NCBI GenBank assembly: GCA_006218045.1
Contig: VBWB01000008.1
Coordinates: 1 to 64,000 of the forward strand
Reading direction: 5' to 3'
Source: Stygiobacter sp.
GTDB taxonomy: Bacteria; Pseudomonadota; Alphaproteobacteria; Rhodospirillales; Magnetospirillaceae
DNA: 64,000 nucleotides
In this document: piece after piece, positions 98 through 8,153 of the stretch
Layout of the letters: every line of letters begins with the position of its first letter
Numbering within the stretch: the first letter of the stretch is position 1
Notes under the pieces: generated by a model
The model's database searches: none
The model's input: only the letters and a program-made list of their open reading frames with translations
Told to the model about the DNA's origin: nothing
Position numbers and translations under genes: made by a program

Positions 98-1549
98 CTA
101 TTCCTGGAACTTCTTGACGATCAGCTCGTTCAGCATGCCGGGATTGGCCTTGCCTTGCGTCGCCTTCATCACTTGGCCGACGAACCAGCCGATCAGCTTA
201 TCCTTGCCGGCCTTGACCTCGGCCACCTTGTCGGGGTTGGCTTCCATCACCTCGGCGATGGCTTTTTCGATGGCCCCGGTGTCGGTGACCTGCTTCAGGC
301 CCTTTTCCTCGACGATGATCACGGGGTCTTTGCCCGATTCGACCATGAAGATGAACACGTCCTTGGCCAGACGGGTGGAAATGGTGCCGTCCTTGATCAG
401 GTCGATCATCTTGCCCAGGTTAACAGCCGAAACCGGCGGCTTTTCCCACGAATACTCGCCGGAATTCATGGCGGCGAAGAAATCGCCCATGATCCAGTTG
501 GCGGCCATCTTGGCATCACGTCCGGCGGCGACGGCTTCAAAAAAATCGGCGGAGGCGCGTTCCGCCACCAACACCCCGGCATCATAGGCGTTCAGGCCGA
601 AATCGGCCATGAAACGGGCCTTCTTCGCGTCGGGCAGTTCCGGCAAGGTGGCTTGGATGGCGTCGACGAAATCCTGTGCCACCACCAAGGGCAGCAGATC
701 GGGATCGGGGAAATAGCGGTAATCATGCGCATGTTCCTTGCTGCGCATGGACCGGGTCTCGCCCTTGGCCGAATCGAACAGGCGGGTTTCCTGCTTGATC
801 TCGCCGCCGTTCTCGTAGACGTCGATGTGGCGCCGGGCCTCGTATTCGATGGCCTGCTGGACGAAACGGATGGAATTGACGTTCTTGATCTCGCAGCGCG
901 TACGCAATTCGGTGCTGCCCACCGGGCGGACCGAGACGTTGGCGTCGCAACGCATAGAGCCTTCCTGCATGTTGCCGTCGCAGGTTTCCAGGTAGCGCAG
1001 GATGGTGCGCAGCTTGGTCAGATAGGCGCCGGCCTCTTCCGGGGAACGCATATCGGGCTTGGAGACGATTTCCATCAACGCCACGCCCGACCGGTTCAAG
1101 TCGATATACGATTTGGTCGGGTGCATGTCGTGGATGGACTTGCCGGCATCCTGTTCCAAATGCAGGCGCTCGATGCCGATGGCGCGGGACGTGCCGTCGG
1201 CCAGATCGATCAAAAGCGTGCCTTCACCGACGATGGGCAGGTCGTACTGGCTGATCTGATAGCCCTGCGGCAGGTCAGCGTAGAAATAGTTCTTGCGGGC
1301 GAAGACCGAGGTCAGGTTGATCTTGGCCTTCAGGCCCAGACCGGTGCGCACCGCCTGTTCCACGCATTTTTCATTGATCACCGGCAGCATGCCGGGGAAG
1401 CCGGCATCGACGAAGCTGACCTGATCGTTGGGCTCGGCACCGAAATCGGTGGCGGCGCCGGAAAATAGCTTGGACTTGGAAATGACCTGGGCGTGCACTT
1501 CCAGACCGATGACGATTTCCCAATCGCCGGTGTCACCCTGAATGATCAT
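98..1549 (-). CDS. gatB: Asp-tRNA(Asn)/Glu-tRNA(Gln) amidotransferase subunit B
   Basis: Protein '[33 protein letters not shown]...'; overlaps gatA stop by 1 nt; the upstream part of the ORF is spurious. Confidence 0.97.
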
Positions 1550-3411: not shown

Positions 3412-3559
3412 ATACCAAGTCTCGATGAGCCATGCTCATCAAGACTTGGTTAGGCCCAAGGGGCCGCGCGGCGCATGCCGCGGGAGGCAAGGGGGGCGGA
3501 GCAACCCGCCCGCCGCTTGAGGGCGCCGCTGATCGGGCACGATCAGCGGGATATGATAT
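3412..3559. repeat. Short dispersed repeat, family A copy 1 (148 bp), hairpin-containing
   Basis: Shares 'ttggttaggcccaaggggccgcgcggc..atgccgcgggaggcaagg..gcggagcaacccgcccgccgctt' and '(c)gatcagcgggatatg(a/g)tat' with 63212-63344; begins with hairpin ACCAAGTCT..AGACTTGGT. Confidence 0.85.
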
Positions 3560-3571
3560 AAGGCCTCCGTC

Positions 3572-4267
3572 ATGAGCAGCTTCGAATACCGTTTGCAGCG
3601 CGTCCCGCAAGGCGTGGTCATCCTGGATCGGGACCGCTGTGTGGTGTCGGCCAACCGGCTGGCCCGGCGCATGCTGGAAGCCCAGGGCGGCACCCACGGC
3701 GTGGCGGTGATCGGCACCCCCATTCTGGATTTGCATCCGGCCATGGTCCGGCCCAAGGTGCAATGGCTGCTGGATCTGGCCCTGGCCCAACCGGACGAGC
3801 CGGCCTCCATGGCCATGACCCTGCCCCTGGGCACCCTGGTCGCCCGGGTGTCGCTGGTGGAAGGCGCCCACGGCCCCGGCTATTGCCTAGTGTTCCATCT
3901 GGTCGAGGCGCTGCCCCAGGCCCCGGTCGAGCCGCTGTTGAAGCTGCCGCTCGACGCCCGCCACGGCGTTCGCCTGCTGGATGTGGCGCTGGCCGCCGCG
4001 TTCCGCGCCGAACGCCATTATTCCCGCATCATCGCCACCGACGGCAGCCAGCATCCCTGCACCATGGGCTTCGCCGAGTTGAGCGGGCGGCTCGACCCGG
4101 TCACTTTTTTGCAGGTGCACCGGTCGTGGATCGTCAATCTGCGCCGGGCCAGGGCGGTTGAGCGGGTGGACGGCCAATGGCGCATCGTCCTTGATGTGCC
4201 CGGCGCCGAGCCGGTGCCGGTCAGCCGCGGCAAGGTCGAGGTGTTGCGGCAGCGTTTGGCGCTGTGA
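3572..4267 (+). CDS. PAS-LytTR single-component transcriptional regulator, RcoM/RcoA-like (putative haem CO sensor)
   Basis: N-terminal PAS ('GVVILDRDRCVVSANRLARRML...ILDLHPAMVRPKVQWLL') and C-terminal LytTR ('RHYSRIIATDGSQHPCTMGFAELSGRLDPVTFLQVHRSWIVNLRRA'); next to cowN. Confidence 0.8.
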   Translation: MSSFEYRLQRVPQGVVILDRDRCVVSANRLARRMLEAQGGTHGVAVIGTPILDLHPAMVRPKVQWLLDLALAQPDEPASMAMTLPLGTLVARVSLVEGAHGPGYCLVFHLVEALPQAPVEPLLKLPLDARHGVRLLDVALAAAFRAERHYSRIIATDGSQHPCTMGFAELSGRLDPVTFLQVHRSWIVNLRRARAVERVDGQWRIVLDVPGAEPVPVSRGKVEVLRQRLAL

Positions 4268-4268
4268 C

Positions 4269-4320
4269 GCATTTGGGGCGGCTCCGGTGCATTTGGGGAA
4301 AACCCCGGTGCCGTTGGCGG
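4269..4320 (+). promoter_or_regulatory. Candidate LytTR/RcoA operator: three direct repeats GCATTTGGGG / GCATTTGGGG / GCCGTTGGCGGGG
   Basis: TT of the TTnnnG-type motif at 4272, 4292 and 4313, spaced 20 and 21 bp, between the regulator and cowN. Confidence 0.5.
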
Positions 4321-4393
4321 GGTCATGGTTGAGCCCTGGTCCGGGCCCGGTCATGGTGGCGGTGCTGCCGCCCCACAGCCAAGGTTGAACGTC

Positions 4394-4690
4394 ATGACCA
4401 CCATCACTCCGCCCGACCGCTATGTCAGCTTTGGCGGCATCGACTGCGAAGGCCACGCCAAGACGGTGATCGAGCACGTCCTGGTCCTCATCGCCGATCC
4501 GGCCAAGTCCAACGCGCTTTGGGACCGTTTCGTCATCCGGCTGGCCGAGGCCGGCAAGGTCGGTTTCCGCAAGGCCGACGAGCTGTGTCTGGCGTGCAGT
4601 CACACCTATTACATCGAAGAACTGTTCGAGGAACACGGCGACGAGATCGGCCTGAACGCCCTGCGCATGCTGGAGGACGAGTGCTGCTAG
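4394..4690 (+). CDS. cowN: CowN, protein sustaining N2 fixation in the presence of CO
   Basis: 98 aa 'MTTITPPDRYVSFGGIDCEGHAKTVIEHV...IEELFEEHGDEIGLNALRMLEDECC'; family hallmarks DRYVSFxGIDC and terminal E(D/E)ECC. Confidence 0.85.
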   Translation: MTTITPPDRYVSFGGIDCEGHAKTVIEHVLVLIADPAKSNALWDRFVIRLAEAGKVGFRKADELCLACSHTYYIEELFEEHGDEIGLNALRMLEDECC

Positions 4691-4817
4691 AGCAGTTTCC
4701 GTTCACACGGAAACTGCTCTAGCATCTGCCTCTGGCGCCCGTGGCCGGGCTCGCTCAGCGCCGCGCGGGCCGGTCGCCTTTTCCGCCATGACTTCATCAG
4801 AGCGGAAAAGGCTCTAG
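4685..4817. repeat. Short dispersed repeat, family B copy 1
   Basis: Perfect 17-bp stem TGCTAGAGCAGTTTCCG/CGGAAACTGCTCTAGCA plus end GCGGAAAAGGCTCTAG; related in inverted orientation to 40360-40481. Confidence 0.75.
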
Positions 4818-7024
4818 GCGTTCTCCGCCGTCGGCAGCCAGACATGCACGGTGGTGCCCTGCCCCGGGATCGAGTCCAGCCACAACCGACCGCCATGGGC
4901 CTTGGCGATCTTGTCGCATGACGCCAGCCCCATGCCGGCACCGGGATACTGGGAGCGGGGGTGGAGACGGGCGAAGGGTCTGGTCACCTTGTCCAGATAC
5001 TCGGCCTCGATGCCGATGCCGTTATCGGCCACGTCGATGCGCCAGCCGCTGCCGTCACGTTCGGCGCTGACCGCGATTTTCGCCGCCACGGCGGGGCGGG
5101 CGAACTTGATGGCGTTGGCGAACAGGTTGTGAAACAGCATGACCAGCAAGACCGGGTCGCCACTGACCACCGGCAGGGGGGACCAGTGCACCCCCAGGAT
5201 ATCGGGGGCGCCCAGGGTGTTCTTGCATTCGCTCCATGCCGCCTCGGCGGCCTTGGCGCAATCGACCGGGACGAAGGCGGCCATGGGCCGGCCCGAGCGG
5301 CTGTAGGCGGACAGGCCCGACACCAGAAGGCTGATCTGGCGCGCCCCATCGGCGATGGTGCGCATGGTGTCGCGGGTCGCCGCCCCCAGTTCCGCCGGGA
5401 TTTCCCGTTCCAGCTTCTGGCAAAAGATCTGGATGGTGCGCAACGGCTCTTGCAGGTCGTGCGAGGTGGCGAACAGCATGCGCTCGATGTCGGCATTGGC
5501 GTCGAGCAGCAGGTCGGCGTTGCGCTTTTGCTGGGTGATGTCTTCCTTCAAGGCGATGTAATGGGTGATGCGCCCGGCATGGTCGCGCACCGGCGAAATC
5601 ACCGTGCTTTCCCAGAACAATTCGCCGCTTTTCTTGCGGTTGACCAGATCACCGCGCCAAGTCAGCCCCGAGGACAGGGTTTTCCACATCTCGCGATAGG
5701 TGGCGGCATCCACCTCGCCCGATTTCAGCAGGCGCGGGTTTTCACCGATCACCTCGGCCTGGGCATAGCCGGTCAGCGCCAGAAAGGCCGGGTTGACGTA
5801 TTCGATGGCGGCGTCGGCATCGGTGATCACCACCGCCACCGGGCTTTGCTCGACCGCCGCCGTCAACTTACGTAACTCGGTTTCGGTGCGTTTGTCGTCG
5901 GTCAGGTCGGTGAACAGGCAAACCAGCCCGCCGGACGAGGTATGGCGGCTGCGAAACAGGTACCAGCGCCCGGTCTGGCGGTCGCGCAACAGCAATTCCT
6001 GGGCGTGATCGGTGTCGGTGGGGATGACCGGGCGGTTGACCGCCTCCAGCCGCGTCCCCATGGTCCGCATCAATTCGTCGAAGGCGCCGATGGGGGCGGG
6101 GGTGTCGAGCAGACGGTCATAGCCTTGGTTGGACAGCACCAGATGGCGCTTCCTGTCGAACAGGGCGAAGGCCTCGGACAGCGAGGTCACCGCGTCGACC
6201 AGTTGGGCGCGGGCCACCAAGGTGGCGTCGTGGGCCTTGGCCTGACGGTGGATGGCCCAGCCCAGGGCCACGAACAGCAAAACGGTGGAGATTTGCAGCA
6301 GGCGGCTAAGGGTCGTGGTGCGATCCTGGCGGATGGCGAAAGCGGCCATGTAATCGTGGCGCGCCGCTTCCATGATCGTCTGGCTGGGGATGGCGAAATA
6401 GGTGTCGATGGCTTGGCGCAACAGGTCTTGCTGCTCTGACAAGGTGCGCATGTGCAAGGCGATGGAGCGCAATTCCTGGTCTGGACTGGCGGCGAAGCGG
6501 TCGATCTCCTGCGTCAGGCCGGTGGATTGGCTGGTGTCGCCCCTATTTTCGGTGTCAAGGGCGATCAGCGCCGCCTGTACCCGCCGGGCGGTGCCGTGGT
6601 CGGCGCCGGCGGCGAAGCCGGTGACGGCGAAGGGCAGATAGCTGATCTCGCGCCGGACGAAGGCGCTGACCGCCTTGATCTGCTCGGCCGCCTGCATCTT
6701 GTCGGCCACATGCCGGCGATACCGCGCCAATTGGTCGGCGGGGATATCGCCGTGAAGATTGAGCCCGTCCAGCCCGTCCAGTCCGTCGCGCAATTGGCGC
6801 TCATAGGCCAGCATGGTGTCGTAATGGGGCAACAGGCCGGCTACCACCTGCAACAGGTCGCGGTCGAAGCTGGCCTCGACCCGCGATTGGGTGTCGAACG
6901 TGGTGACCACCTGGGCGTGACGTTCGCTGTCGACGGTGTTGCGGGCGGCGAAGAAGATCATCACCCCGGCCATGGTGGCGGCGGCGGCGAAGGCCAGTAC
7001 CGCCGGGCGCAGCAAAGTTCTCAT
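4814..7024 (-). CDS. Membrane-anchored PAS sensor histidine kinase
   Basis: N-terminal TM segment, PAS ('AVVITDADAAIEYVNPAFLALTGYAQAEVIGENPRLLKSG'), HisKA 'ATSHDLQEPLRTI', HATPase 'DNGIGIEAEY..GAGMGLASCDKIAKAHGG'. Confidence 0.93.
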   Translation of the reverse strand: MRTLLRPAVLAFAAAATMAGVMIFFAARNTVDSERHAQVVTTFDTQSRVEASFDRDLLQVVAGLLPHYDTMLAYERQLRDGLDGLDGLNLHGDIPADQLARYRRHVADKMQAAEQIKAVSAFVRREISYLPFAVTGFAAGADHGTARRVQAALIALDTENRGDTSQSTGLTQEIDRFAASPDQELRSIALHMRTLSEQQDLLRQAIDTYFAIPSQTIMEAARHDYMAAFAIRQDRTTTLSRLLQISTVLLFVALGWAIHRQAKAHDATLVARAQLVDAVTSLSEAFALFDRKRHLVLSNQGYDRLLDTPAPIGAFDELMRTMGTRLEAVNRPVIPTDTDHAQELLLRDRQTGRWYLFRSRHTSSGGLVCLFTDLTDDKRTETELRKLTAAVEQSPVAVVITDADAAIEYVNPAFLALTGYAQAEVIGENPRLLKSGEVDAATYREMWKTLSSGLTWRGDLVNRKKSGELFWESTVISPVRDHAGRITHYIALKEDITQQKRNADLLLDANADIERMLFATSHDLQEPLRTIQIFCQKLEREIPAELGAATRDTMRTIADGARQISLLVSGLSAYSRSGRPMAAFVPVDCAKAAEAAWSECKNTLGAPDILGVHWSPLPVVSGDPVLLVMLFHNLFANAIKFARPAVAAKIAVSAERDGSGWRIDVADNGIGIEAEYLDKVTRPFARLHPRSQYPGAGMGLASCDKIAKAHGGRLWLDSIPGQGTTVHVWLPTAENA

Positions 7025-8022
7025 GATCCACCGGGCAGCGTGTCGGGCGGCAGGGTGCCCAGGAACTTGACGATCAGGGCGATGTCGGCATCGGGGATGT
7101 CGCGGCCCAATTGGTAGCGGCCCATGATGCGGATGGCCTCGTCCAGGCTGGCCACCGAGCCGTCATGGAAATAAGGCGGGGTCAGCACCGCCAGACGCAG
7201 GCTGGGAACCTTGAACACGTGTCGGTCCGCCTCGCGTCCGGTGACGTTGAAGCGCCCCAGGTCGGCATTGGTCACCGGCCCACCGCGATCCTTGAACCAA
7301 TTGCCGAAGAAGCCCAGCTTCTGGAACAGGTTGCCGCCCACATTGGCGCCCTGGTGGCACGAGGCGCAGCCATAGGATTTGAACAGGGCATAGCCTTTCT
7401 TCTCGTCGGCGGTCAGTGCCGCCGCCTCGCCCCCGAGCCAGCGGTCGAAGCGCGATCCGGTGGCCACCAGCGAGCGCTCGAAAACGGCCAGGGCGCGGCG
7501 TACCAACTCGGGGCTGGGATCGGCGCCATAGATGGCGCGAAAGCGCGGGGCATGGTCGCTGCGGCGCAGGCGGGCGATGGTCTCGGGCCAACTTGATCCC
7601 ATCTCCACCGGGTTTTGCAAGGGGCCATCCACTTGCTGCTCCAAGGTGATGCTGCGCCCGTCCCAGAATTGGGCGATGTTGTAGGCGGCGTTGAACACGG
7701 TGGGCGTGTTGACGCTGCCCTTGGCGCCGCCGATCCCCGCCGAGACCGCCACGTTGTCGCTGCCGCCGCGGTCCAGAGGGTGGCAGGTGGCGCACGACAC
7801 CGAGCCGTCGCGCGACAGCAGGGCATCGTGGAACAAGGCGCGGCCCAGCATGATCTCGGCGGGGTCGAGACGCGCCATGGCCGCCAGTGGGCGGATCGGC
7901 TCTTGTTGCGCCTGGGCCGGATTTGCCGCGGCCGCCACGGCCAGGACCACGGCAGCGCCCAGACGTCGCAGGCGGTGTGTCCCCCGAATTTGTCGGTATC
8001 CCCGGTTTTGTCGATATCCCAT
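7021..8022 (-). CDS. Di-haem cytochrome c peroxidase / MauG-family protein
   Basis: Two CxxCH motifs (CATCH, CASCHQ), signal peptide, 'VPSLRLAVLTPPYFHDGSVASLDEAI'; exact start uncertain. Confidence 0.9.
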   Translation of the reverse strand: MGYRQNRGYRQIRGTHRLRRLGAAVVLAVAAAANPAQAQQEPIRPLAAMARLDPAEIMLGRALFHDALLSRDGSVSCATCHPLDRGGSDNVAVSAGIGGAKGSVNTPTVFNAAYNIAQFWDGRSITLEQQVDGPLQNPVEMGSSWPETIARLRRSDHAPRFRAIYGADPSPELVRRALAVFERSLVATGSRFDRWLGGEAAALTADEKKGYALFKSYGCASCHQGANVGGNLFQKLGFFGNWFKDRGGPVTNADLGRFNVTGREADRHVFKVPSLRLAVLTPPYFHDGSVASLDEAIRIMGRYQLGRDIPDADIALIVKFLGTLPPDTLPGGS

Positions 8023-8153
8023 GTGTCTCCCCACACCTTTGGGATTTCATCCTGCGCACAGGATGCGCTTGTGATGCGAAAGTATGCACAAGTTTTTTGT
8101 CATGGCGGTGTCGCGTTTGTTGCGCGATGACGCCGGGCGTGGTGGATTAGCGC

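Follow-up and report, generated by a model that had tools for sequence, protein, structure and literature searches.

A probable CO-response module of the RcoM-cowN type in Stygiobacter sp., with a candidate RcoM operator in front of cowN

Two neighbouring genes in the window (the whole stretch of DNA analysed, 64,000 nucleotides) probably make up a CO-response module of the RcoM-cowN type, in which a regulator gene is followed by cowN and the spacer between them carries three candidate RcoM boxes. The pairing of rcoM with cowN is already on record and is not new, as the RcoM gene of Rhodospirillum rubrum adjoins cowN according to PMC4257681, which cites Kerby and Roberts 2011; what this analysis adds is the putative RcoM-type operator in front of cowN. 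In the mechanism we propose, the PAS domain of the regulator would hold haem through His55 and Met80, CO would displace Met80, and the CO-bound dimer would bind the three boxes between the genes and recruit RNA polymerase to a weak promoter, so that more CowN would be made and Mo-nitrogenase could go on turning over in CO. That the regulator binds haem, senses CO and controls cowN is predicted from sequence, and the basis for the module as a whole is the two protein families, the His/Met positions, the three repeats, the -35-like element and a layout that is kept across genera. Against it stand the missing Cys94, a poor -10 element and, in the window's clade, two boxes out of three that deviate from the published motif. 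NifA may be a further regulator of cowN, although the spacers gave no match to a NifA-type site. The features are collected in Table 1.

Table 1 Features of the regulator-cowN region (window positions unless residues are given)
Feature	Position	Strand	Remarks
RcoM-type regulator gene	3572..4267	+	231 aa; PAS + LytTR
Regulator PAS domain	about residues 5-110		predicted haem ligands His55, Met80
Regulator LytTR DNA-binding domain	about residues 122-231		C-terminal
RcoM box 1 (candidate), CATTTGGGGCG	4270..4280	+	clade-specific variant
RcoM box 2 (candidate), CATTTGGGGAA	4290..4300	+	20 bp from box 1
RcoM box 3 (candidate), CCGTTGGCGGG	4311..4321	+	21 bp from box 2
-35-like TTGAGC	4329..4334	+	7 bp past box 3
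cowN	4394..4690	+	98 aa; nitrogenase-protecting protein family
Perfect 18-bp inverted repeat	4685..4724	.	overlaps cowN stop codon, no T-run

The LytTR domain of the regulator was matched well above the cut-off (PF04397, E 6.7e-14, 52.3 bits against a cut-off of 22.6), but the PAS region was weak in Pfam, where PAS_4 (E 0.0033) stayed below the cut-off. A profile built from 40 relatives of the regulator reached haem PAS proteins such as DosP (E 1.1e-4) and, weakly, FixL. In the AlphaFold2 model (pLDDT 89.6, pTM 0.53), the LytTR part matched 3d6w and AgrA structures with E from 4.5e-8 to 8e-4, and the PAS part gave weaker matches to several PAS structures, some of which bind haem; sequence and fold searches of the PDB turned up no RcoM structure. 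The PAS-LytTR architecture claimed by an earlier sequence-only reading was thus confirmed, for LytTR directly and for PAS through the relatives' profile and the model. The protein is an N-terminal PAS domain fused to a C-terminal LytTR domain without a receiver domain, which is the RcoM architecture, and it is the single LytTR protein of its genome. Judged by its sequence, it is a regulator of the RcoM type.

As RcoM reference we used an annotated LytTR regulator (L112) that lies divergent from a coxMSL-type cluster on plasmid pBN2 of Paraburkholderia aromaticivorans. In BxRcoM, His74 is a haem ligand and Cys94 a ferric-state ligand. Residues His75, Cys95 and Met105 of the reference are numbered one higher than the BxRcoM ligands (74, 94 and 104). 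In PMC9670170, Met104 of RcoM is named in the title of a reference and a His/Met ligand pair in the text. His75 of the reference aligned with His55 of the window regulator, a position that was invariant in 58 of 58 sequences, and Met105 aligned with Met80, a placement that depends on the alignment, with Met82 present too. His55 and Met80 are therefore at the RcoM ligand positions in this alignment, in agreement with the earlier likening of the protein to RcoM/RcoA, and they are the predicted haem ligands of the window regulator. The Met80 column held Met in 43/58 sequences and Leu or Ile in the other 15, some of which are from Magnetospirillum molischianum, Xanthobacter and Rhodoblastus (Leu/Ile loci L003, L005, L011, L013, L017, L070, L079, L090 and others). 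Many of these Leu/Ile proteins carry a Met a few residues on (TPMGS or TAMGS), and their CO-replaceable ligand may have shifted position. The equivalent of Cys94 is absent from the window regulator; since this alignment column is a gap here and in most relatives, Cys94 was not taken as defining RcoM.

The second gene encodes the sole CowN of its genome. The product matched Pfam PF20543 over nearly its full length (E 2.3e-31, 108.7 bits against a cut-off of 27) and the NCBIfam equivalog NF033689 (97.4 bits against 48), so the 98-residue protein that the sequence-only reading had taken for CowN passed the profile search on which that reading had staked its identity. The segments which it had quoted from the two proteins were all found in the translations ('ILDLHPAMVRPKVQWLL', the CowN pattern DRYVSFxGIDC as 'DRYVSFGGIDC', and C-terminal 'EDECC'). 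An in-frame ATG at 4325 would give a protein of 121 aa, but 4394 is the likely start because conservation begins near the DRY motif. CowN keeps nitrogenase turning over in CO in Gluconacetobacter diazotrophicus (PMC8047169), and the window CowN is likely to protect nitrogenase against CO in the same way. Around the two genes, the repeat over the cowN stop codon is possibly a terminator or a repeat element. Further inverted repeats lie after cowN at 4776-4812 (16 bp at 88%, no T-run, possibly a repeat element) and upstream of the regulator at 3414-3450 (17 bp at 94%) and 3526-3549 (10 bp, perfect). Downstream of cowN on the minus strand are a gene for a DAHL-PAS-PAS histidine kinase with a NifL-like PAS part (4814-7024) and one for a di-haem cytochrome c peroxidase (7021-8034), which overlap by 4 bases.

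The rcoM-cowN spacers hold direct repeats of CCGTTCRYGCA about 20 bp apart, which match the published RcoM box TTCNNGCA; the RcoM-1 operator consists of three such repeats with a spacing of 12-13 bp (PMC11347149). A box matrix was started from the known core and then refined on the 49 spacers that do not belong to the window's clade. It found box pairs 19-23 bp apart in 47/49 of these spacers; dinucleotide shuffles gave 0.2 on average. As the matrix had been refined on the spacers that it scored, a fixed-pattern repeat test was added: TTCNNGCA was found at 53 sites (1.7 in mononucleotide shuffles), and the shortened published core TTCNNGC gave pairs in 32/49 spacers against 0.025 in shuffles; the loci are related, so these counts are not independent events. 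The box-bearing loci span Azospirillum, Telmatospirillum, Magnetospirillum, Xanthobacter, Azorhizobium, Rhodoblastus, Hyphomicrobium and Azospira. Boxes were also present in four cowN upstream regions outside the training set, where rcoM is convergent (L011), divergent (L097 and L099, both Azospira) or not on the stretch at all (L009), which means that the boxes remain in front of cowN where rcoM has moved. A TTG stands exactly 7 bp past the third box at 38/49 loci outside the clade, and likewise at L097 and L099. By contrast, the five CooA-paired cowN upstream regions carry TGTC-N8-GACA sites and lack an RcoM array, with a single isolated box-like match at L103. In the RcoM-paired spacers no CooA site and no NifA site was found, and the search for sigma-54 sites gave nothing but one sigma-54-like match (L002). 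The cox promoter region of P. aromaticivorans had weak box scores only, so the cowN-trained matrix does not describe RcoM boxes in general. The boxes are probably DNA-binding sites of the RcoM-type sensor.

In the window itself the boxes read CATTTGGGG, CATTTGGGG and CCGTTGGCG at 20 and 21 bp, against the published TTCNNGCA triplet, a form that relatives outside the window's clade do have; among them, box 3 comes closest to the general consensus. When the window spacer was shuffled 20000 times, 41 of the shuffles held an exact 9-mer repeat at 20 or 21 bp. The genome holds a single copy of the pair CATTTGGGG-N11-CATTTGGGG, and three mismatches are required to find it elsewhere; the general box-pair search gave 30 matches (18+12) against 5+7 for a reversed-pattern control, and by eye these looked like chance. 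The -10 hexamer is poor (CATGGT at 4352-4357), and the sigma-70 and terminator scans found nothing.

The window's species, which is placed near Magnetospirillum on the basis of the closest named cowN loci, and five other Magnetospirillum-like species form one clade, with a support of 1.0 in the RcoM tree and 0.98 in the CowN tree. Box 2 is CATTTGGGGAA in all six species, while box 1 is CATTTGGGG in three and closer to the general form in the other three; the box register of L023 and L028 was set by eye, the automatic fit having picked another place. The LytTR domains of the clade carry G148R, R181Q and H192R. Outside the clade, position 148 is G, position 181 is R, and position 192 is H in 51 sequences and Y in one. 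At position 181 lies the FhRhHRS-motif arginine, which matches AgrA Arg198, a residue that contacts DNA; the matching VirR residue is involved in DNA binding (PMC4227749). R181Q together with the altered boxes is thus a possible specificity shift. A tentative reading, less probable than not, is that in this clade the LytTR domain of RcoM and the operator of cowN shifted in step, a natural switch of LytTR operator specificity in which some living species would be intermediates. General drift may also explain these changes, because 20 positions differ between the clade and the others and the stem branch is long (0.64).

The same changes could instead mean that this RcoM relative has partly decayed or changed its role in the clade, that it has ceased to control cowN via the three boxes and that another factor drives cowN, for example through a partial dyad, TTTGGGG-AAAA-CCCC, that overlaps box 2. 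The off-consensus box 2 lies within this dyad in the six species, and the three substitutions fall at otherwise (nearly) invariant LytTR positions on the long stem. However, the clade retains the 20/21-bp register, box 3, the -35-like TTG and the PAS ligands, the gene order is kept in 6/6 species, and such a dyad, with four matches in the window's genome, is uncommon as a site. We consider decay improbable, and keep the RcoM-cowN module as the preferred reading.

The window's genome has nifD (G000:C51, 853 bits, over the cut-off). At E 0.001, neither TIGR02416 nor TIGR01702, the models for aerobic and anaerobic CO dehydrogenase, gave a match. The CooA search gave CRP/FNR-type matches only, which were 29-34% identical (best 7.8e-9), and a CooA may be among them. 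As no CO dehydrogenase was matched, the module most likely serves nitrogenase protection only and not growth on CO; given also nifD, the one LytTR protein and the unique box pair, it is likely to be a single-target switch for that purpose. The suggestion drawn earlier from direct adjacency, that the two genes are a self-contained CO-response cassette, is supported by the conserved RcoM-type boxes just ahead of cowN, the genome-unique box pair, nifD and the lack of a CO dehydrogenase match.

In the order, CowN was present in 49/317 genomes, and the nifD model was matched by 48 of the 49, a few below the curated cut-off; the exception is a genome that is 79% complete. At 30 cowN loci from this survey, an RcoM-like gene was within the stretch at 22 and an MHYT-LytTR gene at one. 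At 80 named cowN loci of the GTDB collection, an RcoM-like gene was adjacent or near at 52/80 and a CooA-like gene at 5/80, with one CooA-like match verified as CRP-family. Several loci depart from the RcoM arrangement. At L016 (family f28 genome), a gene for an MHYT-LytTR protein of CoxC-like architecture (284-1363, plus strand) replaces RcoM in front of cowN, and the spacer has TGACAYTGGTG repeats exactly 20 bp apart; this is presumably a third kind of CO sensor at cowN. The related genome of L014 is without the MHYT-LytTR gene. Five Pleomorphomonas loci (L082, L087, L096, L101, L107) have cowN preceded by a CooA-type site (near -180) and by a sigma-54-type promoter (near -86); they lack RcoM boxes, and no CooA gene was found within the fetched stretch. 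At L021, from a relative in the window's family, cowN stands next to a gatC-like reading frame, and both the RcoM gene and the boxes are missing, which suggests that the regulator was lost there.

The PAS domain could also sense something other than CO, such as oxygen, NO or the redox state, with cowN forming part of a broader nitrogen-fixation response. PAS domains are versatile, and the relatives' profile also reached oxygen sensors, but the conserved His/Met pair is shared with the cox-linked RcoM, and other lineages pair cowN with CooA, another CO sensor (PMC8047169), so we regard this as slightly less probable still than decay. That the two genes are chance neighbours with unconnected regulation is very unlikely, in view of the box arrays ahead of cowN and of RcoM-like genes beside or near it at most of the named loci, in many genera. 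For the RcoM-cowN module, the comparative operator map ties RcoM to cowN over Alphaproteobacteria and Betaproteobacteria, in contrast to the CooA-wired loci, and both the interchange of CO sensors at one target gene and LytTR specificity become testable with small DNA fragments.

Among known systems, rcoM/rcoA-cowN of R. rubrum likewise has the RcoM gene beside cowN in a nitrogen fixer (PMC4257681); R. rubrum also has CooA and coo CO-oxidation genes, whereas the window's genome gave no CooS or CoxL match. RcoM-1 and RcoM-2 of Paraburkholderia (Burkholderia) xenovorans are PAS-LytTR proteins with His and Met haem ligands, and a triplet of direct repeats spaced by about 20 bp precedes their target (PMC9670170, PMC11347149); the window shares the architecture, with predicted ligands and candidate boxes of this kind. 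They control cox genes, and their box is TTCNNGCA against CATTTGGGG in the window. Unlike the window regulator, P. xenovorans RcoM has Cys94. In G. diazotrophicus and Rhodobacter capsulatus the CO sensor CooA controls cowN, and in the former the CooA gene is also a neighbour of cowN (PMC8047169); these systems differ from the RcoM-type window in their CRP-family sensor, TGTC-type site and the additional involvement of NifA. CoxC of Afipia carboxidovorans resembles the window regulator as a CO-responsive LytTR regulator with three direct repeats (PMC11347149), but it is a cox repressor with a membrane-bound MHYT sensor (copper), an architecture that stands beside cowN at L016 and not in the window.
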